Positions 20,291-60,801 of a DNA stretch of 64,000 nucleotides are shown in pieces (the first letter of the stretch is position 1; every line of letters begins with the position of its first letter). Under the pieces are notes generated by a model that was not told the DNA's origin, did not search any database, and worked only from the letters and a program-made list of their open reading frames with translations. The stretch comes from Parelaphostrongylus tenuis. Taxonomy: Eukaryota; Nematoda; Chromadorea; Rhabditida; Metastrongylidae. Position numbers and translations under genes: made by a program. The DNA lies in assembly GCA_019055375.1 (NCBI GenBank), contig JAHQIW010000200.1, positions 1 to 64,000 of the forward strand. The letters are read 5' to 3'.

Positions 20291-20781
20291 TAATATTCAA
20301 ATCACCTCATTAAAAAGCATCGACAATGTAGATGAAAAAGGCATTGATGAATGTGAAAGTATTCTAAAACGGACAAGTACAACCAACATATATCGGCGCC
20401 TGAACAGCTCACATGTTGATAATCATTTTCTTTTTTAACACTTAATCACTTAATCCTATACTTAGTGACTTTTCATCTAGCACTAGTGCAAGAGATGCAA
20501 ATCGATTACTGGGCATAATGCGACCATAGGAGCAGTAAAAAAACTATTTTTAAAATCAAACAATGTAGTTTGATCCTTCAATAAGGTCTATTAAGGGCAC
20601 TTATACAGTGCAAGTCATGCGTTTCGATCTTATTTCTAGAATAAGGTGTAATTTTATACTGATATCCAAATCAATATTAAATTATGTAATCTACATATGC
20701 TTACAGTGTAATTAAGCTGGGGCACACATCTGTTAACACGACCTTGAGAAAAAAGAAATGGCTAAAACGGGTACCATCAAT

Positions 20782-35690: not shown

Positions 35691-35969
35691 GGTCTCTTTT
35701 ACAACTTATAGAGTTCCCAACTAAACTTTGAAATTTGATGTCTAACGTTTCGACGGCAACGCCTTCGTCGAGGACTGGACGTACATATCACACCATATCT
35801 GTTTATCCACTTAATATTTCTAAGCATCAAGAATCCAATAGAAAGGAAATCATCAGTCCAGTCATTTTAAAAAGCCCACCTTATTACAGTTATATGAGGA
35901 GAGCTCACCGGTCTTGTGTGGCACTCTTTGAAGTATGAACCATACTCAGACTAAAAGATGAATCTAAGA

Positions 35970-36400
35970 CAAGGTGCCATATCACTCGTTATGTTCAGGC
36001 ATTCTCCCTCCTATTCATCTCTGGCCTTTTACGGTCTATCCAAAAGCTCCAAGGGCTTTTCGCGCTGTTGTTTTTGATTCTTGCCCCAGGATTCTAACTT
36101 CCACATCAAAGTCCATATTGCCATGTTTTCTACTCTGTGCGCCTCTAAAAGCTTACTTGATCAACCAAGCTGTTGGCTTTTTCCAGTGTTATTTCTGCTG
36201 ATCCAAAGTGGTCTTCCTGTCTCGCCAATGTATTCCTCACCGCATGTTTTGTAAGAGATCAGGTATATTATACCCAAACTTTATGCAATCTCCTTCTCCA
36301 TTGTTTGGGAAGACTACACAATTGTCCAGTCTTACGCAGGCAGTCGTAAAAGCTGTTCCAAACCAATTGGCGACTTTCTACGATTTCTACAGAGTTTCTC
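35970..36400 (-). pseudogene. GIY-YIG endonuclease relic of Penelope-like element (left half)
   Basis: On the reverse strand, pieces in different frames correspond to the plus-strand copy at 36.57-36.99 kb: a region like NSFYDCLRKT, then 'tataatatacctgatctctt' (IYLIS-like), then a segment equivalent to CGEEYIGET (aacatgcggtgaggaatac, attggcgagaca), then a basic region followed by 'cctggggcaagaatcaaaa'. Frameshifts and stops break it. Confidence 0.65.
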
Positions 36401-36567
36401 CACCCCTTTGTACTTAAACACATTTAAGTCTGCCTATTGCGTTCGTTATAGAAGGCAGTTTCAAAAATATCTTCTCGTCTGGATTTGAAACAATATCGTT
36501 TTCGTCATTCATGTTATGTAGTTTATCTCACCTTATTGACCTGACTTCAGTAGCAGCTCTTTTGTAT

Positions 36568-36995
36568 TTATCTGAAATGGCTAACTTTCGCGCTAGACGT
36601 AGTGACTCTCTTCCTCAGTCTTGCCAATTGGTTCAGAACCGCTTTTATGACCGTCTGTGTAAGATTGACGACTGTGCAGAATGTCCTAATGGTAGAGAAG
36701 GAGAATGCATGAGTTTGGGTACAATATACTTGATCTCTTGCACAACATGCGGCTGAAGAATACATTGGCGAGACAAAAGACTACTTTGGATCCGCATCAA
36801 AGAATACTTGGATGGGAAAGCCTACAGCCAAACAAGTAAGCCTTTAGGGGCGCATAAAGTAGAAAAACATAACGATACGGACTTTCGATGTGGTAGTAGG
36901 AATCCTGGGGCAAGAACTAAAAACATCAGCGCGAAAAACCTTTGAAACTTCTTGGATAAATTGCAAGAGACCAGAAATGAAGTAGGAGGGAAGAA
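36568..36995 (+). pseudogene. GIY-YIG endonuclease relic of Penelope-like element (right half)
   Basis: Open to TIYLISCTTCG, then a one-base frameshift near 36755, after which EEYIGETK and RIKEYLDGK can be read in neighbouring frames. The pattern has a Cys-rich prelude (CKIDDCAECPNGREGECM), IYLIS, CxxCG, EYIGE and an IKEYLDG helix. It matches the GIY-YIG domain fused to the C-terminus of Penelope-like reverse transcriptases. Broken, so not active. Confidence 0.75.
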
Positions 36996-37269
36996 TGCTT
37001 GAACACAACAAGTGATATGGCACCTTATCCCAGAATCATCTTCTAGTTTGAGTGTAGTTCATTTTTCAAAGCGTGTCACACAAGACCGGTGACCTCTCCT
37101 CATACAAGTGTAAATAAGGTGGGACTTTTCAGAATGTCTAGACTGCTAGTTTCTTTTCTACTAGATCATTGATGCACACGAAATATCAAACCAGCAATCA
37201 GATATGGTATGACATGTACGTCTAGGCTCTGACGAAGGCGTTGTCACTGAAACGTTAGTCATCAAATTT

Positions 37270-41300: not shown

Positions 41301-41361
41301 GAAAGGTAATCTGATAACGATATCTTGAGCCTATCATAAGGTCCGTTATGTCACTTATACA

Positions 41362-41402
41362 GTGTTAGACAGCTGTTTCGGCTTTGCTGCCCCATCACTG
41401 GC
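41362..41402 (-). ncRNA. Decayed hammerhead-ribozyme-like motif
   Basis: Reverse strand: GUGAUGG in place of CUGAUGA, stem II GGCA/AGCC around a GCAA tetraloop, GAAA, then AC-AGCU-GU and C (GUC triplet). Two core positions differ from the functional consensus, so catalysis is unlikely. Same layout as the intact copy at 53384-53426. Confidence 0.5.
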
Positions 41403-41734
41403 ACGGTGTCTTTCGGTTCAGCCAATCCCTTACGGGGTGATAACTCACTCCCACATATAAAGGAATCGATGCCGAACAACAAATCACCACAAGTCAGGTG
41501 ATGAAACTCCCGGATATCAGAGTGACCAAAAGTTGAGATCGTGGCTGGACTGTCTATAAAAAAGTCGAATGAAGAAGTAAAATTTATTTTACGAGCCACG
41601 AGCTCAACTGCTAGTCACTGCGATGTCGTGGAATTTTATCATCTAACCTGCAGTGATTTGTTATTCGGCGTCGATTCCCTTGTATAAGGGTTTAATCCTC
41701 CTGTAACTGAGGATTGTCTGAATCGAAAGACACC

Positions 41735-41775
41735 GGGCTAGTGATGAGGCTGTAATGTCGAAACAGCTGTCTATA
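41735..41775 (+). ncRNA. Decayed hammerhead-ribozyme-like motif
   Basis: Plus strand: GUGAUGA (first core base changed from C to G), GGCU-GUAA-UGUC as stem-loop II, GAAA, stem III AC-AGCU-GU and a GUC triplet. Stem I pairs weakly. Probably inactive. Confidence 0.5.
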
Positions 41776-42585
41776 TAAGAGCCATAACACACCTTATGAT
41801 AGGCTCAAGATATGGCATCAGATTATTAAGCTATAATCGCGCGTTTGGAATCACGTTCAGTGTAGTGAATTCACACATGCTGAGCGTTGGCCCAACCACC
41901 CCACACAAAAAAGGCAAAAAGAAAAGTTCAAGGTACCCGAGTATCGTCTGAGCGATATAATTGACAGCCGCAGCGTCAACACCCCTTTTACTGCAGCCTA
42001 GACTGCCCCACGTAACTTATCAGAAAAGGTACATTTTCTCAGTTATCCTTATTACCAATCCAACCCAAAGAGCACATCACTTTTCACCGTTCACCACTAC
42101 AATCCCTCTCTAAAGTGCCAGAAGGCTTCTTTTGATTGTATGGATGACCATACCACAACTAACTATACCTCTGCTAGCACACATAAAAACAACTGCGAAT
42201 ATATATTAACCATTGCAACATTATACAATGCTTCACTTAGAAAAGTATAAGACGAAATGAATTCTCAAAGATCAGCAACAATGGAAAATGAATAGAATTA
42301 GCACTGATTGAACAGCCCAGTTCCTAGAAGGAAGCGCTTTCTTTCAGAGTACTTAGACCTCTCTGACAGTCATACCTTGCAACAACGACCAGTTTATCGG
42401 TTAAGAGTTAAGACAGTCATTATTCACTTCATCATCACCCCAACTTCTACTTGATTGTAGGAAAACTCACATTTTTTTAATCAAAATATAGATTAACAAG
42501 CATCAACAGAATGTAGGAACAACAGCGAGGGACTCTAACCGTGGAAAACAACTGACATTATAATAACAAAAGACAGTAAACGACT

Positions 42586-45500: not shown

Positions 45501-47499
45501 CTACATTATTGGATATGTGATTACAATATCATACTACCGCTAAAAGGGCGGTTGAATAAGAAATCTTGTTGATTACTTATATCCAATATCTGTTAGCGTA
45601 ACTGGAATCACTGCTAATATGTACTTACCAGAGCAAAGCGAGAACAGTTGGTTGCTGACAAATCGATTGTTTGTATCGCAGAAAGGGAGCAAAAGAGAAG
45701 TCTCCGTAGTGCAAATGGTTGGCACGCACCCCAGGAAAAGGTAAAAGGTGTGTTCGATTCCCGTCTGAGGTTCTAGGTTACGCAGATGCAGAGCAAGCCG
45801 CGGTCCCAAAAGGTTTATATTTGTTCAGTTTTTCCTCTTATTTCACTGGTTAGTGCCTAAACCAAATTTATGTCGAATTTCAGATTGCTATAGAGACAAT
45901 GACCGTTTTATCGCAAAGAATGAGCAAGTAGTAAACTCAGTTAATCACTCCCATTCAGCTCATTTGTGGAACACTTTTTCAGTCTTTGACTTTCCATTTC
46001 GCCTGAAGAAGTCGAAAGATGTCTTGCTTACATCTCATAATTATTGTTTGGACGAACATGTTATGTGATCCGTTATGGGCTCTTGTACAGCCCGATACAC
46101 GTGTTTCGGCCTTACAGCCTCGTCAGTCTAGCAGGCCCTTCGTCTTTAGCCAATCCTCTCGGGTGCCCCTACATTCCCCTACAAAATGCAAGCGACGACG
46201 AAACATTTACATAGTCGCCGTAAAGGGAAAATCACTAGGTCTGGCAGAGTTTGACACTCGATTGCTCTTTGCTGGTAATTGACGGCAACTGTGTAAATCG
46301 TTCGTCGTTGCCTATTCTCACAGAAATGCCAGCCAAGAGTAATCGAGAGTCAAACACTGCTGACTCAGTGGTTTTTCACTTGACGGCGATTGTGTAAATC
46401 AATTGTCGTTGCCTACTCTTTATAGAGGGATGTAAGGGCCCCGAGAGGATTGGCTAAAGACGAAGAGCCTGCCCAACTGACGAGGCTGCAAGGCCGAAAC
46501 ACTTGTATCGATGCACAAGAGCCCATAACAGACCAAATGACATGTTGGTTGAAGTATTATCAGACACATTGAAATTTGAGCGTGGTCTTGAGAAAACACT
46601 CAAAACAAACGATATAATACCCTACTTACACTTATTCTCCTAAAAGCTTTCGAATATATACGCATTGATATCGTCCAATGAATATCGCTCCTCATCACAT
46701 TCCCTTTTCATACCACGCAAAAAACTTTGGAAACCACAGTTCAACTTTGAACCAATATCAATGATACATCGACTTTGATCTCTTTTCTCTAACCTCTACA
46801 GCTTAAATTGAAGACGAAATTATGTGAAGAAAGAATAGCAGAAAACGTTAGAACAAAGTATGCAGAGCACCATGCTAGGGTACTTGGTGTAAAACTTCGA
46901 TACTAAGTCCGAAAGGAGACCAGATTAGGACAATTGATAATAATTGAACAAAATTGTAGTATTTTTGGGCAAAATTTCCTAATCGTAAAGGGCGAGGGGG
47001 CCTACCCATAGCAGCTAATCCAACAGAACATGCAAAACGTTGCAGTGAGAAGAGGAACGCGTTGATGATAGATGGCTAGAAGCTCGATATACCCCATTTC
47101 TCTACATATATTCTCTTTCAATGAAATAAACTAATTCGACGGACCTTGATTGGCATGGTGTCGGTAGAGCAGTTCTTTCCAGCTATCAATGCGCTCTTGA
47201 TCGCATCTATGCCTTCATAGGAGAAGCATGACACTTCGATATCGGCACGAATCTGCAAAGAATTTTGTTTTTCTTAGAAATTCTCTTCCGGGGGAAAAAA
47301 ACACCAACGACAGCGCCAATAGACTCGTCGTGAATTTATAAGCGCCTGTATGTTCAAGAATGTTGAGTGATAACAAAGCAAGAAAGCGGTAGTTTAATGA
47401 TTAGAACACGCACTCGGTGAAATGGGATTCAACTCCTGCTTGAAGCTGAATTTTGCATATCACTCAGCATCCTTGGATATAAAGAACTATCCTATAGTA

Positions 47500-50740: not shown

Positions 50741-53700
50741 CTATTGTGGCAGATTCAGCAACACGTTTTGATTAGCGGGGAGATATGTGACATTCTTTGA
50801 CTTCGACATACGCTCAGCAATCTCTTCGGCAGCTTCAATTTTTCGCAACTCTACTAAAGCATCTCCAGCGTCAGCAAATGCCTAAAGCATACAGCTTCAA
50901 ACTTTTTCTAATCCTCTTATGACAATTAGAAAATTAGAAAAAAAAACAGTAAAAAGTACTTTGCTCAGTAGTTTGGCGGCCTGTGCATCTCCTTCTGCCG
51001 TGGTGATAGCAGCGATTTTCATCTGTTCAGCTTTCTCGACAAGATAACGGGCTTTTTCCGCTTCTTGCTGTGCTACTTGCTTCATTTCAACGGCCTCCGT
51101 AAACTCACGTCCAAATGATAAGTGAGTCTGAAAACTTATAGATCATTCCAACCTAAAAAGAAAGGAAAATTTTCGGCATTGATCAATAACTGAGCGATCC
51201 GCCATGGATTTGTCCTGATTTATACATGGTATCGTTTGAGCTGACTAAACGCATTGCCAGCCATAACAATGACTTGTGGTAATCATCTAACGATGTATTA
51301 AATCAGCTTATTGTCCTCCTAGAGAAATCTAGTGCCAATTTGCTGTCACCACCGGATGGAGGGCTTGGCGAGCCTTGAGAGCAGGATCGAGCCATCGCCG
51401 ACGAGTGTCGCGGGACACCTTTTACCACTCTATGCCACACTCGCCCAATATAAATTTAGCATTACTCTACTATATTGATTCAATCTTAATCAAAACTTAC
51501 AATAGAAATGTCGTCCAAAAGAAGCCCAAACTGTGCCGCTCGCTGAGATAAAGCCAATGAGACGCGCTGTGAAACTGTCTCACGTTGTGTGATCATTTCG
51601 TGTGCATCAAATTGAGCCTGAAAAATACTCAAGAAAAGGAGTTCAAATTCAACTCCAGGCTGATTCAATTGATAGCGTGAAGCTCGTTAATGAAAAACTC
51701 AGACTTAGGACTGACTTGAATACATCAAATATTGCTCTATGATCCCACAAAGTTGAGAGAAGCAAGAATGATTAGATAACACAGTTGAAAGCAAAATACT
51801 TCGCGAACGGGAGAACTTACAGTTCACTAGAACACTTGCAATCACTAGCTACTCAGAATGTCTTCCGCTAGTCTGAGACTCTTCATAGAGATCTCAGTAT
51901 ATTGCCTGCTATGACACATATCATAGAAGCTCTAAATCTCTGATGCTCTTGGCATCGATCAGCACCTACGAGATGCGTCATGCATTCAACATCACCAAGA
52001 TTCATTTGAGGTGAGTGAATGCACATATGATCCTCACAAAGAGTCGTGGTAGCCTACCGATGTATCAAGTCAGAGCTGCTATCCTCTCAGACATGTCGGG
52101 TACCAAACCCCTGACTCCGCAGGAACAGGTATGGTGAGCCTTGGGCGCTGGATTGAATCATGCATGTCGCAAGGCACCTCTAAACACAGAGACAGATGCG
52201 CACTTCTTCTTCCATATCACCTGTACCACCTGACGTCTCGTTGATCTTCGAGTGACTCGAGCGAGTACCAGCAACTTTTCCATTTTTCCCTATCGCGTGC
52301 AAGAGTAGCCCAGTGGGTCCTCCTCGCTCTAGGGATTCGCTGAGCATCATATCTTTCTTCTATCGCTTTCGTGAAGAAATCGGACCAACGGGTCAGTGGT
52401 CTTCCTTTAGAGCGCTTGACGTCCCGAGCCAGTCGGTAACGGCTCTCGTCCATCGGTTGTCGTTGAAGCGCATCACGTGTTCGGCCCACCTGATTTTCGA
52501 TATCCTGGCGTGCAGACCGGCGTCTCTAATTTTCGATCGTTAACGTAGGTCAGAACTTCGGATCCTTTCTCTCATTTGCGAGATACGGGATGCTTCTTCC
52601 ATATAATGTTCAATAATTCGAAGTTATCGCAAACTTCGCATTGGTTCCGATGCACAAATGAGGACGGGAAACGTAAGTTAGAAGCTAGTACAGCGGTATT
52701 TATGAACTGGATAGATCACAAAGATACATGAACCACAGCATTCTCACCACAACTGCCTTCAGAACCTCATTAGTAATCGATGGTAATACTCTTTCTGCAT
52801 AATCCAAACCAATATTGAGATAGATATTAGGAAGTTTCGTCGGATCTGGTCGATGAAGTATTCGCAGCGTTATAGATACGTTTTGGAGATCTGAAAAGAA
52901 ATGAACGACTACTTCAGGAAACAACATCGGAATTGATTCAGTAAGCACAATAGGTTGTCTTTCAGCAGATACATTCAGATGAAAGGTTTTCAGAAATATC
53001 GAGGAACCGATAAACTAGGTACGTGTAGATTGTTCTTTTCGTTGCTTACTAGTGGTGGACGCTTTAAATAGTAAGAATTTGGGTCAAGAACGGCAAAGAA
53101 TCCACTGAATAACATATTATACCTTCATTTCGATTGTTTTGTTAGGACCACGCTCAAATTTCAATAGATCCTTTCATGATTATTTGAGCCACCTTGTCAT
53201 GTGGTCTGCTAAGGGCTCTTGTACAGCCCGATACACGTGTTTCGTCCTTAGAGACTCGTCACTCGGGCAGAACCCGTTGTCTTCCGAAAAGAGTGTAAAA
53301 CGTTCGTCTTTGATAACTCTCTGTAGGGAGAGTAGGGCTCTCGAAAGAACTGACTACAAAACTATCGAAAGACGACGGGTTCTGCCCGACTGACGAGTTT
53401 GTAAGGACGAAACACGTGTCTCGGGCTGTACAAGAGCCTTTACCAGACCATATGACATGTTGGCTCAAATAATAATGAAAGGAACCAATGAATAACACAC
53501 CTTACAATAATTCATTCTATATATTCAAGAATGTTGACATGCAAAAGACTCTAAGGCAGGTATTGAACCCGCGTCTCAGCCTTTCCGGAGGCGAATCATT
53601 TTTATTTTTCATGTACATCAATTGAGAAAGTCAAACACACAGCATAACGCGAGTTATCCAAAGCAACACTGGACCCAAATTTTGCCAACCAATAGGTAAG

Positions 53701-55598
53701 AAAATTTTCCCTTTCGATCTTCATGTGAAACACGATGATCAGCGACAATAAACCGGTACGAAATGGGCATCAAACCTAATAGTCGCGCACAAGCACTGAC
53801 CTTTTGAAAACCAAATGGTACTTTTCTTACTGTGCCCGTACAACGTCAAATCTCACTCAGCTACTGTAATGGCGGCGCCGCGTCTCGTGGGAAAGCAGGC
53901 GCGGACAGTCAGACAAGCATGCACAAGTATGCAAATGCCGCCTCCTGCGAGTGCCCTATCACCGCTAGTTCTCAAAGCGTCGCTTCAGTGTATGAAATCA
54001 CGTAACAAGAATTACCTTTACTTCCCGTAATAGTTGAAATTACTCTAGGCGTTGAGCGGATATCGAACAGAATGGGCTTCTGAACCCAAGGAACAAGGAA
54101 ATGAGTTCCTTCACCGACAACGACATCTTTCACACCGGCAAATCGATCGAAAATTACAGCTCGTTGACCTCCATCCACTATAAATGGAGATAGAGAAGAG
54201 TACAAGTGTCTCTAGTTACAGCTTAAAACTTGTAAATATAAAACTTTTGCGCACTTTTTGACTAATAAACAGTCGTGGGAGAGCACTAGCTATGCAGCGA
54301 GGCAAACACAGGGGTTCTCAATTACTCCCTTCGAAGTTCCAACATTTTAGGAATATGAAAGCAATCTGAGCGATATATAGAACTTTGACCCTCGGGCGGG
54401 AGTTGAACACGCATTTCAGCCACACGTGTGGGTGAGGGGGGGGGGGGGGGGAGGTGAGGTAGTGATACCACTGCACCATCGAGGCCTGTGGTCTGTCATC
54501 AGTATTCTAGCCTTTGGTCGTCATCAGTATTTTCGTGACATAAGGTATCGCAACTGTCAGCAACCTACCGCCAACAGGTTTTGTATGGAGAGCACATTAC
54601 GGCGTTGAACCCAGATGAACTGACAGAGCCAATGGATATATATCATTTACACGACTTCTTGTTTAATTTCAGAGCAGAGCGGGTGACTCGGTGGGTAGTG
54701 GTCGCACACGTTATCGGTATGAGTGAAACAGGGGTTAAACTTCCAACTGAGGTCCTGAGTTTCGCTTGTAACTCAGCATCTTTGGACACTCAATTGTGGC
54801 ATCATATAGTGCATCAGAAAGTTTAAAACCTTTTCCGAGTGATATACAAGTGGCTCCACAAATATCGGCGGTATCGCAAGCTTCATCAGAGCCACACGTC
54901 ACGTACGGAGCCCCACCTTATAGCAGGGATCGGAAGACTTTTTGGTGATAGCACGTGATCGTGGCTATCAGCATCTTTCACCATTATCACCAGCGTCTCC
55001 CCATCCCTGCTATAAAGTGCCCTTCTTCGTCTTTTTCTTCTAGAGAGAGAGGAAGAGAGAGAGAAGGTAGAGAGAGAGAGAAAGAGAGAGAGAGAAGAAG
55101 AAGAAGAAGAAGAAAGGAGAAGCCCCCTCCCTCCCCTCTCTGAACTTTGTGTGGGGCGTGTGGCTCTGATGAAGAGGGAGATATAGTCGATACGGCCAGT
55201 GACATACCAACCTCGAAAAGAGATTAAACATCATTAAGGACCACACTGAATGTTTATAGCGAGATTTAACCACTTCGGAACCACGGACCCAACTCTCTGC
55301 GTCTCTACCCCCACAGTGCACAACAAGTTCTATTGTCAGACGTCATTGTTAGACGCAACACGCGGAGGGTCAGAGAAGCAGAAGGTGGACCCATGGTCCG
55401 AAAAGGGTTTGAAGTCGATTGAATGACCTCGGATTACTATTCTAGTGGCGGCACATTAAAAAAAAATTCTAGATTGTTATATGAAAAGGTTCAAACCTCA
55501 CCATTATAGAGTGCCGACTGAGCAACTCCACCAGCTATAGCAAGGCCGACACCAAGAGTGCCAAGTCTTCCAAGTAGTTTCTGTGCAACTGCTGCCAT
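50741..55598 (-). CDS. phb-1: Prohibitin 1
   Basis: Six exons with consistent phases: 55598-55502, 54177-54016, 52890-52748, 51617-51501, 51127-50960, 50881-50741, giving 275 residues, the usual prohibitin length. The N-terminus [20 protein letters not shown] is the hydrophobic inner-membrane anchor. The SPFH/PHB domain follows ([66 protein letters not shown]), then the coiled-coil ([35 protein letters not shown]) and a C-terminal [17 protein letters not shown]. It forms ring complexes with prohibitin 2 in the mitochondrial inner membrane, stabilising newly made proteins. A perfect TTTCAG acceptor ends 2 nt before the ATG, a strong sign of spliced-leader addition. It is divergent from rpl-27A and upstream of eIF2 alpha. 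Confidence 0.97.
51161..51446 (-). mobile_element. SINE-A, diverged copy
   Basis: 'ttttcggcattgatcaataa' at the left, 'ctcctagagaaatctagtgc' in the middle and 'taccactctatgccacactcg' at the right, in SINE-A reverse order. In phb-1 intron 4. Confidence 0.75.
51943..52203 (-). mobile_element. SINE-A, diverged copy
   Basis: 'gatgctcttggcatcgatca' at the left, 'gatgtatcaagtcagagctg' in the middle, and 'ctctaaacacagagacagat' at the head. It directly abuts an RTE 3' end at 52208. In phb-1 intron 3. Confidence 0.7.
52208..52600 (-). mobile_element. RTE-type LINE, 3' end fragment
   Basis: Reverse strand reads [51 protein letters not shown] in pieces, matching the C-terminus of the copy at 33.36 kb, with a small deletion before LARDVKRS (the TDWIPRDVKRS region). 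Ends with the ggtgatat(gg) type terminus at 52208-52225. 5' truncated. Confidence 0.88.
53226..53268 (-). ncRNA. Hammerhead ribozyme motif (left arm, one core change)
   Basis: Reverse strand: stem I GCCCGA/UCGGGC is perfect. The core is GUGACGA, so the first core base is G rather than C. Stem II is GUCU/GGAC with loop CUAA, then GAAA, stem III AC/GU with loop ACGU, and triplet GUA. The core C-to-G change should cripple self-cleavage. Confidence 0.65.
53384..53426 (+). ncRNA. Hammerhead ribozyme motif, intact by eye
   Basis: Stem I: GCCCGA (53384-53389) pairs perfectly with UCGGGC (53421-53426). Core CUGACGA at 53390-53396. Stem II GUUU (53397-53400) pairs GGAC (53405-53408) around a GUAA tetraloop. 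GAAA at 53409-53412. Stem III is AC/GU with loop ACGU, and the cleavage triplet GUC ends at 53420. All invariant core nucleotides of the hammerhead are present. Beyond stem I, further pairing with internal loops is possible on both sides. The very short stem III is the type reported for hammerheads in Penelope-like elements. Confidence 0.8.
53520..53592 (-). mobile_element. SINE-B-like fragment
   Basis: 'attcaagaatgttgacatgc' then 'ggtattgaacccgcgtctca' (reverse box B) and 'ctttccggaggcg'. Same variant as at 49.1 kb, truncated at the head. Confidence 0.5.
53810..53995. other. GC-rich patch in phb-1 intron, unidentified
   Basis: A stretch much richer in G and C than the surrounding intron ('ggcggcgccgcgtctcgtgg', then 'ctcctgcgagtgccctatca'). 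No coding sense on either strand fits phb-1. Probably part of a mobile element, but no second copy is in the window. Confidence 0.35.
54345..54500 (-). mobile_element. SINE-B-like copy with poly-G insertion
   Basis: 'gacccta'-like box B in reverse ('cgggcgggagttgaacacgc') and head 'taccactgcaccatcgaggc', interrupted by a run of about 20 G residues at 54434-54452. The G run may be a local expansion or sequencing artefact. Confidence 0.5.
54665..54795 (+). mobile_element. SINE-B-like copy
   Basis: 'gactcggtgggtagtggtcg' in the box A position, 'caggggttaaacttccaactg' in the box B position, and 'ttgtaactcagcatctttgg' tail, as in the 47.4-kb copy. Confidence 0.45.
54871..55190. mobile_element. 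Foldback element containing a purine-rich microsatellite
   Basis: Left-arm blocks 'cttcatcagagccacacg' (54881-) and 'caccttatagcagggat' (54913-) recur in inverted form at about 55155-55175 ('cgtgtggctctgatgaag') and 55005-55020 ('atccctgctataaagtg'). The space between the right-arm blocks is filled by (GA)n/(GAA)n at 55040-55115. The arm ends read gtggctctgatgaag, then cgatac, which looks like a decayed hammerhead (CUGAUGA ... GAUAC). Confidence 0.6.
55040..55116. repeat. (GA)n / (GAA)n microsatellite
   Basis: Nearly pure purine run of about 75 bp. The open frames over it (E/R/K runs on plus, S/L/F runs on minus) are repeat translations. Confidence 0.9.
55266..55411. mobile_element. Short foldback MITE, copy 2
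   Basis: Left end ttaaccacttcggaaccacg, then ctctgcgtctctacccc. Reverse complement of the right end: aaacccttttcggaccatgg, then ttctgcttctctgaccctcc. Same family as 48687-48854. In phb-1 intron 1. Confidence 0.72.
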
Positions 55599-56525: not shown

Positions 56526-56739
56526 CTATATGCACTTATGGTTTGAAAATTTATAAAGTAAGTCATTCTGTTGGATTTATAGGATCTGACTGAGCGGACT
56601 GCATGTCAAATTCGACCTTTCCAGGCTCTGAAGAGGGCGATAATCGCCAATTAGCCTCTATCATCACTGAAAGATCGGGGATGCGCTCAAACCGTCACAA
56701 CTCAACGTTCACGCTTCGTTCAACTTGAGAACAAAACTA

Positions 56740-58647: not shown

Positions 58648-60801
58648 ATGGCCCACGCCAAAAGGAAGACTCGAAAGCTTAGGGGTCACGTGTCTCACGG
58701 GCATGGTCGTATAGGAAAGCACCGGAAGCATCCCGGAGGTCGCGGTAAGGCAGGTGGTCAGCACCATCACAGGATCAATCGCGATAAATTCCATCCTGGT
58801 CTTTTTGGAAAGGTCATGTTCCGTTTTTGGATCCTTTAGTTATTTAGAGAAACTGCAAACAATAATTACTACTGGATTTTTCTAATGGTTACCGTTGGTT
58901 ATCAGTTATGAGGTTGGGGGGAGGGGGCCATGGCCGAGTGGTAGTGATGCTCATCGCAGCACGGGTTGATCCCCCCCCCCCCCTCCCTCCCCGCCTTCTG
59001 ACACTATGGCAGTTAGCAAGGAAAACCTTATGGAATGCCACAGCCCAGTTATCCTGGAGATTGCAAGGAGATATGCTTCTATTCTTCTAAGCTATAGAAG
59101 AAGGACATGATGCTCAGCGAATCCCTAGAGCGAGGAGGACCCATTGGGCTACTCTTACACGCGATAGGGAAAATGGAAGTGTTGCTGGTACCCGCTCGAG
59201 TCACTCGACGATCAACGGGACGACAGGTGGCAGGTGATGCTTCTGTTATCGTTCAGGAGGAAAACGAAGAACGATTCGAACGCTAGGAGTACTGGTATCC
59301 ACACAGTAAAATCTGATGAGCCATGTAAGAATTATCATGGTATTTGATTTAGATCACCACTGTTCTCAATTGATGGGGAAAGGAGGGAGGGAGTTAGTGG
59401 GTGGTTAATGGTACAGGCCATCAGAAAGCCAAATTTGATTCGCCATCCTCCAACCACTCGTCTTCATTCAGTCAATGTACGCCTTACGGAAGTCCTTAAC
59501 TCGAATTCCTCTGAATTCGCTGGATTTACCCGATCAGCACTTTACGTCACTCGCGAACAAATTCTGGATTAGTCGTAACAGCCCCAAAATGTTCAACGAC
59601 CTCTGTGAATGGTAAGTTCGAGGATGCGAGGAACACGGTTTGATTGATAGAAGAGATTTGGGATTTGCACAGTAAGAAATGTAGTGACTGGTCGTTTAAA
59701 ATGAAAAAGGTGTTGGTTCTATTCAATTTTTGTTAAACGATAATGCCTGGTGCAACGGCTTAGCACATGGTCCCGGAAAGAGTGAGATGTGGGTTCAAAT
59801 CCCGGCTGACGCAAACGTTTTTGCACACCACTCTACATTATTGGATTTATAGAAACATCATATCACCGCAATAGGCGGTCGAATAAAATGATTTCTGATA
59901 TCGCCTGGGTTGAAGAAAAATCGGTCTTCAACATTAAATCACTTCATTTTGTTCGATATGTTTGAAATATACAGTTGTTGTTAACCACGTTTCATGTTCA
60001 GGTTGGTATGCGAGTATTCCACTTGAATAAAAATCACTATTATTGTCCGACGGTGAACGTTGATCGATTGTGGTCGTTGGTTCCTGAAAAAATCAAGGAG
60101 CAAGCCACACCTACAAAAGCTCCGGTTATTGATTGTGTCAAGGCTGGCTATTTCAAGGTAAGTTCATCATACAACCTCTTGAAAGTCTTCTCCTTCCTTC
60201 TTGGCGCTTCTATCTACTTAATGGTAGTAGTGTATGTAGTGGAAGGTATATAATGTCCTTTGGATATTCGGGTCTCCTTCGGTGCTATTCTGTTCTGTCT
60301 GTTGAGTAGTATCATCCTCTGGACTCGAGACACTTCACAACTTGTTATACTCTTAAACTTGCGGTACTTTATTACAAGTTTTCATTCTAGCTGAACGCAA
60401 AAATTTTGATCTCTTCCAAGCAACATCTTTCAATAATAATTGACGTCGAACAAACAAAAATACCTTAGAATTTTGAGTTCATAGGCCTTCAAGTTTTTCA
60501 TAGTTGAGTTTTGTGTTTCCAAATAGAAAGTTAGCAAGCCAGTTGTTGCTTTTTACACTATCAACTATATCTTTCTCAAAATGTCAGTGTTATCATTTTT
60601 CACATATCCTTGCTGTTTAACACGCTCCAATATATGCTCCCAACATAGTATTTTGCTCTTTTCTTCGATGGCTTTTTTTTTCAGGTGCTTGGAAAAGGTT
60701 TACTGCCAAAGCAGCCCCTCGTTGTGAAAGCAAAGTACTTCTCTCATGAAGCCGAAAACAAAATCAAAGCAGCTGGAGGCGCTTGTATCTTGGTGGCATA
60801 G
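58648..60801 (+). CDS. rpl-27A: 60S ribosomal protein L27a (uL15)
   Basis: Three exons: 58648-58812, 60002-60157, 60685-60801, all phase 0 joins, giving 145 residues, the usual length. The highly basic N-terminus ([35 protein letters not shown]) is the hallmark of L27a/uL15. Then come [20 protein letters not shown] in exon 2 and [19 protein letters not shown] with a GGACILVA end in exon 3. It is a component of the large ribosomal subunit. Intron 1 is large and carries SINE-C, an RTE fragment and SINE-B. The next gene on the same strand, rla-1, begins 225 bp after the stop, which suggests an operon of ribosomal proteins. The upstream neighbour phb-1 is divergent. Confidence 0.97.
58905..59070 (+). 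mobile_element. SINE-C (tRNA-Ser/Leu-like head)
   Basis: 'catggccgagtggtagtgat' carries box A and 'gcacgggttgatccc' box B, followed by a poly-C run (58971-58984) and 'ggaatgccacagcccagtta'. Same family as 44548-44722. In rpl-27A intron 1. Confidence 0.65.
59097..59237 (+). mobile_element. RTE-type LINE, 3' end fragment
   Basis: Encodes the last part of the RTE C-terminus ([20 protein letters not shown]) and the terminal 'cgacaggtggcaggtgatgc' end. 5' truncated, in rpl-27A intron 1, immediately after the SINE-C copy. Confidence 0.85.
59738..59895 (+). mobile_element. SINE-B (tRNA-derived), near-consensus
   Basis: Head 'tggtgcaacggcttagcaca', box B 'gggttcaaatcccggctgac', tail 'tttgcacaccactctacatt' and 'caataggcggtcgaataaaa'. 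In rpl-27A intron 1. Confidence 0.85.

Follow-up and report, generated by a model that had tools for sequence, protein, structure and literature searches.

The locus considered here, from Parelaphostrongylus tenuis, raises two questions: what kind of element carries two oppositely oriented hammerhead ribozyme motifs inside an intron of a prohibitin gene, and what machinery inserted it there. It was analysed within a 64,000-nucleotide stretch of DNA (the window), in which the insertion and its surroundings are as listed below, with positions in the repeating unit counted from C3 of the hammerhead core.

53103..53115, unstranded: left target-site duplication CCACTGAATAACA
53113..53287, minus strand: long (left) arm, unit -25 to +149 relative to C3
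53116..53484 (ends approximate), unstranded: foldback insertion, delimited by the inverted repeat, the unit coordinates of the arms and the target duplications
53226..53268, minus strand: hammerhead motif of the other arm, with core change C3 to G, RF00163 26.0 bits, below the cut-off
53290..53483, plus strand: short (right) arm, unit -99 to +93 relative to C3
53384..53426, plus strand: intact type I hammerhead motif, RF00163 35.1 bits, cut-off 34
53485..53497, unstranded: right target-site duplication CCAATGAATAACA
53972..54211, minus strand: prohibitin (Band_7) exon frame flanking the intron with the insertion, PF01145 26.0 bits, cut-off 23.6

The hairpin of about 340 bp that a first-pass annotation had described proved to be real. 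Its arms (53160-53287 and 53365-53492) are 128 nt each and 88% complementary, with a spacer of 77 nt, and the RNA of 53150-53492 had a folding energy of -214.3 kcal/mol (z -23.9), which none of 100 shuffled sequences equalled. The insertion consists of two head-to-head partial copies of a unit of approximately 320 bp, and its arms are unequal, with unit homology reaching +149 from C3 on the left (53113) and only +93 on the right (53483). The flanking duplications, CCACTGAATAACA and CCAATGAATAACA, are identical at 12 of 13 bases. The foldback has a GC content of 0.444; none of its four frames had a Pfam match, and neither a reverse transcriptase (RT) nor a GIY-YIG endonuclease frame was found in it.

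The earlier reading that the plus-strand motif retains all bases of the hammerhead core was checked with the Rfam Hammerhead_1 covariance model (RF00163), and the motif scored above the cut-off. Stem I consists of 6 bp, stem II of approximately 4 bp, including two U-G pairs, capped by a GUAA loop, and stem III of 2 bp, in agreement with the stem lengths and tetraloop that had been reported; cleavage would be expected after position 53420. As had also been claimed, the opposite arm carries the motif with a single core change, and the cleavage base there is A, not C. Formation of the intact plus-strand hammerhead within the full hairpin costs approximately 59.5 kcal/mol (-154.8 versus -214.3 kcal/mol). 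Stem III lies inside the palindrome ACACGUGU, which might allow two copies to dimerise, and dimer pairing of this kind has been reported for amphibian and Penelope motifs in a review (PMC7761336). A viroid-like agent, with a ribozyme in each polarity, was also considered and was rejected, as nothing beyond the symmetric hairpin spoke for it.

The intronic position of the element was supported by the exon frame at 53972-54211, which matches Band_7/SPFH. More minus-strand frames, down to 50741, resemble prohibitin by eye, and one of these scores for Band_7 below the cut-off; the frame at 52700-53014 had no Pfam match. The prohibitin sense strand is the minus strand and carries the motif with the C3 to G change, not the intact one. 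In a Penelope hammerhead, C3G has been described to abolish cleavage (PMC11167929). Self-cleavage of intron RNA, which the first-pass annotation had regarded as possible, is unlikely in prohibitin pre-mRNA because the motif in the sense orientation has C3 replaced by G and because the intact motif could form only at the expense of approximately 59.5 kcal/mol of hairpin. The antisense (plus-strand) transcript may cleave itself against the same hairpin cost. As a ribozyme, the element at 53116-53484 is probably silent in the prohibitin intron.

Two older foldbacks are present elsewhere in the window.

46040..46619, unstranded: second, older foldback, C3 of its hammerhead-like cores at 46126 (minus) and 46477 (plus), short end at +86, long end at +147
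about 41320..41813, unstranded: third foldback, decayed and from a related subfamily, with a C3 to G change in the hammerhead-like core at 41741, stem III palindrome ACAGCUGU

Neither gave an Rfam hammerhead match at E values up to 5, and a clear target duplication was found in neither. Further hammerhead-like subfamilies were observed in locus L011 (2283) and locus L066 (3468) in addition to window position 41741, with stem III ACAGCUGU in two of them, which suggests that this genome contains several related families.

The window match lies only 1.1 bits over the cut-off, and RF00163 signal below the cut-off was present in 11 of 14 control genomes (over the cut-off in none of the 14), both of which could be taken to mean that the hammerhead motif is a functionless chance match. 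That reading is scarcely credible, as dispersed copies show the core again, with changes in their stems that compensate one another. Among 58 distinct hammerhead motifs that were aligned, 40 had all 11 core positions and 18 had a changed core; the cleavage base was A in 40, C in 13, T in one and G in one, with a gap in three. The pairs of the three stems were formed in 92.2% of cells in this alignment, and pairing fell to 30-52% when the partners were slid by one to three columns. Doubly changed compensating cells numbered 18, compared with 3.7 in shuffles (as high in 0 of 500), and the number of pairs with a compensating change was 5, compared with 2.7 in shuffles, a value reached by 28 of 500. 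Also against a chance match, stem II has the form GAUC-GCAA-GAUC in one subfamily and GGC/GCC in the second window foldback (46040-46619), and a relative scores 38.0 bits. The 18 changed cores weigh on the other side, as does the finding that a motif exceeded the Rfam cut-off in only 3 of 11 related loci scanned. With regard to a contact between the stem I loop and loop II, the main family is compatible with a 7-bp outer stem I that spans a 6-nt bulge, and cross-subfamily duplex energies did not separate.

The family was searched for in the source assembly (481.5 Mb, 5105 contigs). At least 97 matches were obtained with the hairpin as query (40 scored of 3337 first-look candidates), at least 132 with the ~320-bp unit (40 scored of 4219 candidates) and at least 69 with RF00163, at least 20 of them over the cut-off (74 scored of 119811 candidates); all of these counts are lower bounds from which no copy number is derivable. 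The window foldback belongs to a large dispersed family. Direct tandem units were found with periods of 320 bp (L010 and L016), 317 bp (L018) and 319 bp (L024), and at 24 of 40 places, by a hand count in the unit-query search, an opposite-strand piece adjoins a direct unit. The two units that were measured have GC contents of 0.409 and 0.404; the unit has no RT or endonuclease frame, and the longest stop-to-stop frame in a 500-nt slice is 89 aa. The repeating unit is a non-coding monomer of 317-320 bp that contains a single type I hammerhead and in places forms tandem arrays, and the hairpin is not the unit. The earlier description of the element as belonging to a mobile family in a nematode, short, without coding capacity and equipped with a ribozyme, was upheld, and the searches of the assembly returned dispersed copies. 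The foldback insertion of L003-L009 lies within a larger repeat that also bears Penelope-type hammerhead cores, with stem III CGUACG.

Redundant copies were dropped before ends and junctions were counted: L003-L009 were treated as one insertion, L030 as the opposite-strand version of L026, and L020 together with L022 as a single locus, whose duplication score was that of its better copy. Target duplications scored 9 or more at 21 of 28 loci, compared with 0.5% of 738 mismatched flank pairs, and at 15 of 21 loci after merging; the commonest duplication length was 12 bp. The unit pieces, 71 in number, ended in two main classes, 27 of them 88-112 from C3 (mode 95) and 24 of them 138-158 from C3 (modes 147 and 148), while 7 continued into the next unit and 13 ended elsewhere. 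One long and one short end were combined in 18 of 21 non-redundant insertions (P 0.001 if the ends were independent), two short ends were seen in the remaining 3 and two long ends in none; the irregular locus L013 was left out of this count. The inner junctions that passed the filter were distinct in 21 of 22 cases, with overlaps from -36 to +5. In most insertions the foldback is newly made, with a partial unit laid head-to-head against another. Since L021 and L029 have one common junction and different target duplications, an existing foldback may on occasion be copied.

A foldback or MITE-type DNA transposon, with the hairpin as mobile unit and a transposase acting on the inverted ends, would account for the long inverted repeat, the dispersed copies and the target duplications. 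It is a highly improbable source of this family, however, as the two ends of one insertion differ, direct tandem units exist, and distinct internal junctions are not expected if a hairpin is cut and pasted. The same junctions, together with the 317-320 bp tandem monomer, removed the 340-bp hairpin from the role of mobile unit in which the first-pass annotation had cast it. Two further patterns were examined in the insertion data and discarded. Apparent ends approximately 50 nt from the unit start in the unit-query search resembled a third end class close to the hammerhead cut, but in four small stretches the homology extended as far as the normal short end, and we take these ends to be an effect of the cutting of candidates. 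Among the loci of the hairpin-query search the positions of the two inner junctions added up to a nearly constant value; this was absent from the unit-query table and probably arose from query selection.

The scars were compared with those of Penelope-like elements in the same genome. Locus L034 contains a reverse transcriptase frame with RVT_1 and GIY-YIG domains, and its RT as query gave 27726 first-look candidates in the genome, 86 of which were scored. Among the best 30 of the 27726, 26 had 99-100% identity and 27 were stop-free in the matched stretch, and Penelope open frames extend up to 902 aa. A search with the L034 protein named Ancylostoma, Haemonchus and Necator near the top (best 120 of 246 hits), and Angiostrongylus was 71% identical over 61% of the query among the matches listed. 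Taken with the snoRNA ceN88 in the window, these relatives suggest a strongyle-like nematode as host. A pattern search detected a core of the form CUGAAGA...CGAAACGUC in 28 of 30 loci; on the basis of its core letters and of the literature on Penelope hammerheads, we take it to be Penelope's own short hammerhead. It gave no Rfam match at E values up to 10 in the one Penelope locus scanned. In L046, the Penelope ORF starts 109 nt after C3.

The hammerhead was present in 40 of 48 matched Penelope terminal-repeat pieces, and 13 of these 40 ended 95-112 from C3, 18 ended 140-156 from C3, 7 ran on and 2 ended elsewhere (copies not merged in either count). The two ends of the Penelopes lay 97-109 and 142-154 nt after C3 of their own hammerhead, and both ends could be placed in 7 loci. 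In all four insertions with an inverted terminal repeat (L039, L042, L055 and L063) a long end was combined with a short one, and the duplication, of 12-13 bp, was perfect; the three insertions that lack this repeat (L040, L043 and L048) had duplication scores of 8, 6 and 5, compared with 7 or less in 42 mismatched pairs. The link to Penelope-like elements made in the first-pass annotation gained support from these data, as the ends, the end pairing and the duplications of the ribozyme family match those of the Penelopes of the same genome. Downstream of the hammerheads, the unit resembled the Penelope terminal repeat in sequence no more than shuffles did, and the two had no significant shared fold, which counts against use of the unit by a Penelope protein; the AC-rich region after the unit hammerhead had no significant fold in six stretches (z -1.5 to +0.6). 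That end positions, pairing, orientation and duplication length are common to two elements without detectable likeness in that region points to one machine.

The similarity of the scars might also be explained if the ~320-bp units themselves served as terminal repeats (pLTRs) in a Penelope subfamily, autonomous now or formerly, and were left geneless; they would then be parts of a Penelope rather than separate satellites. Penelope insertions, as described in PMC3846280, have pLTRs in direct and in inverted orientation, one of which bears a tail, and duplications of 8-10 bp, and direct and inverted repeats with one tail are the form seen here; four Penelope pLTRs also stand in a row in L065 with a period of 231 bp. 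This explanation was judged unlikely, although it retains some weight: the unit replaces the terminal repeat in none of 30 Penelope loci (L037-L066; best 30 of 27726), it is separate where it is present (L037 and L041, with diverged pieces in L047 and L059), and it is without likeness to the pLTR. The row in L065 (621-1517) has a hammerhead core in each repeat and looks like a retrozyme array.

Twin priming by LINEs yields target duplications as well as head-to-head joints at which there is little homology. If LINE retrotransposition had produced the inverted copies in this way, such joints and duplications would be expected here too, and the likeness to Penelope would be coincidental. An inverted joint inside the insertion and a target duplication are indeed shared by this family and twin-primed LINE insertions, but the two fixed internal end classes, one each in 18 of 21 insertions, set it apart, and the long and short ends match those of the same-genome Penelopes, so that we consider LINE twin priming very unlikely.

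The explanation that we favour, and regard as probable taken as a whole, is that the family consists of non-autonomous, retrozyme-like satellites that are inserted in trans by a Penelope-type RT/GIY-YIG protein. According to this explanation, the ~320-nt non-coding unit would be transcribed from tandem copies, the hammerhead would cut the resulting multimer into units, and a host ligase may close the units into circles. A Penelope-like RT/GIY-YIG protein, for which this genome has numerous intact copies, would then take the unit RNA in trans and would cut both target strands approximately 12 bp apart. Reverse transcription would start inside the RNA at two sites, located approximately 95 and 148 nt downstream from C3, and in most cases each of these starts would supply one end of the insertion. 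The two cDNAs, joined at variable points, would form a foldback of head-to-head copies, one arm being long and the other short, and tandem copies would stem from templates that exceed one unit. The ends, the junctions and the duplications in this account are observed features, and the enzymology is a proposal. The insertion at 53116-53484 would be one such product, placed in a prohibitin intron. For the PAc protein, cutting and extension of both strands have been reported, with two internal starts defining the tail (PMC11167929). We also suggest, tentatively and at somewhat less than an even chance, that animal retrozymes in general are Penelope satellites and that Penelope integration is a concerted two-strand reaction in which a single enzyme complex primes on both strands of the target and each of the two internal RNA starts is used once. 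If this were true, a long and a short end and a duplication of approximately 12 bp would be expected whichever RNA was copied, and the foldback would be the regular outcome of integration rather than an aberrant one.

Metazoan non-LTR retrozymes, as Cervera and de la Pena describe them (2020, PMC7229834), are non-coding tandem units of 150-450 bp. Other hallmarks of retrozymes are a canonical hammerhead, in which the stem I loop contacts loop II, and circular RNA of unit length in abundance. The present unit is like them in being non-coding and tandem (317-320 bp), in having one type I hammerhead and a GC content below 50%, and in target duplications longer than 4 bp; it is unlike them, as they are presented there, in its palindromic stem III of 2 bp and in the form of its single insertions, most of which are head-to-head foldbacks that combine a long end with a short one. 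The word 'inverted' occurs 0 times in the main text of that paper. The family resembles Penelope-like elements, so far as the anatomical descriptions in PMC3846280 and PMC11167929 extend, in its head-to-head repeats with a tail on one end, its duplications of 8-13 bp and its hammerhead upstream of two end positions, but its unit encodes no RT or endonuclease, and, unlike in the Penelopes of this genome, its hammerhead is a different one and its sequence is unlike their terminal repeat.

Published work already covers retrozymes, the hammerheads of Penelopes and their inverted repeats, and mobilisation of retrozymes by Penelopes has been proposed on the basis of shared traits and co-existence. 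What is added here is the evidence from insertion scars for the Penelope-retrozyme link, in a nematode; no prior report of retrozyme insertion scars matching Penelopes was found in the literature at the level of titles and the beginnings of abstracts, and nematodes are unmentioned in the main text of two retrozyme papers. The family adds a nematode to the hosts of retrozyme-like elements. The match of the scars makes mobilisation of retrozymes by Penelope directly testable with purified protein and unit RNA, the end-pairing test can be run on any animal genome, and the results point to a machine that may copy ribozyme-bearing elements in animals.

Penelope-like sequence was also found in the window itself.

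35954..37258, both strands: Penelope-like RT/GIY-YIG coding remnants, by tblastn and blastn

A decayed piece of Penelope terminal repeat lies at 37214-37258, with a hammerhead core near 37229 (blastn). Penelope-like RT/GIY-YIG remnants were also observed at 173-1457 on both strands, and a short Penelope terminal-repeat match at the hammerhead core was seen at 56620-56639 (95% over 20 nt). A weak partial match to a foldback arm at 20585-20632 (73% over 48 nt, E 0.08) is perhaps an old fragment. The nematode H/ACA snoRNA ceN88 was identified at 60190-60335 (89 bits).
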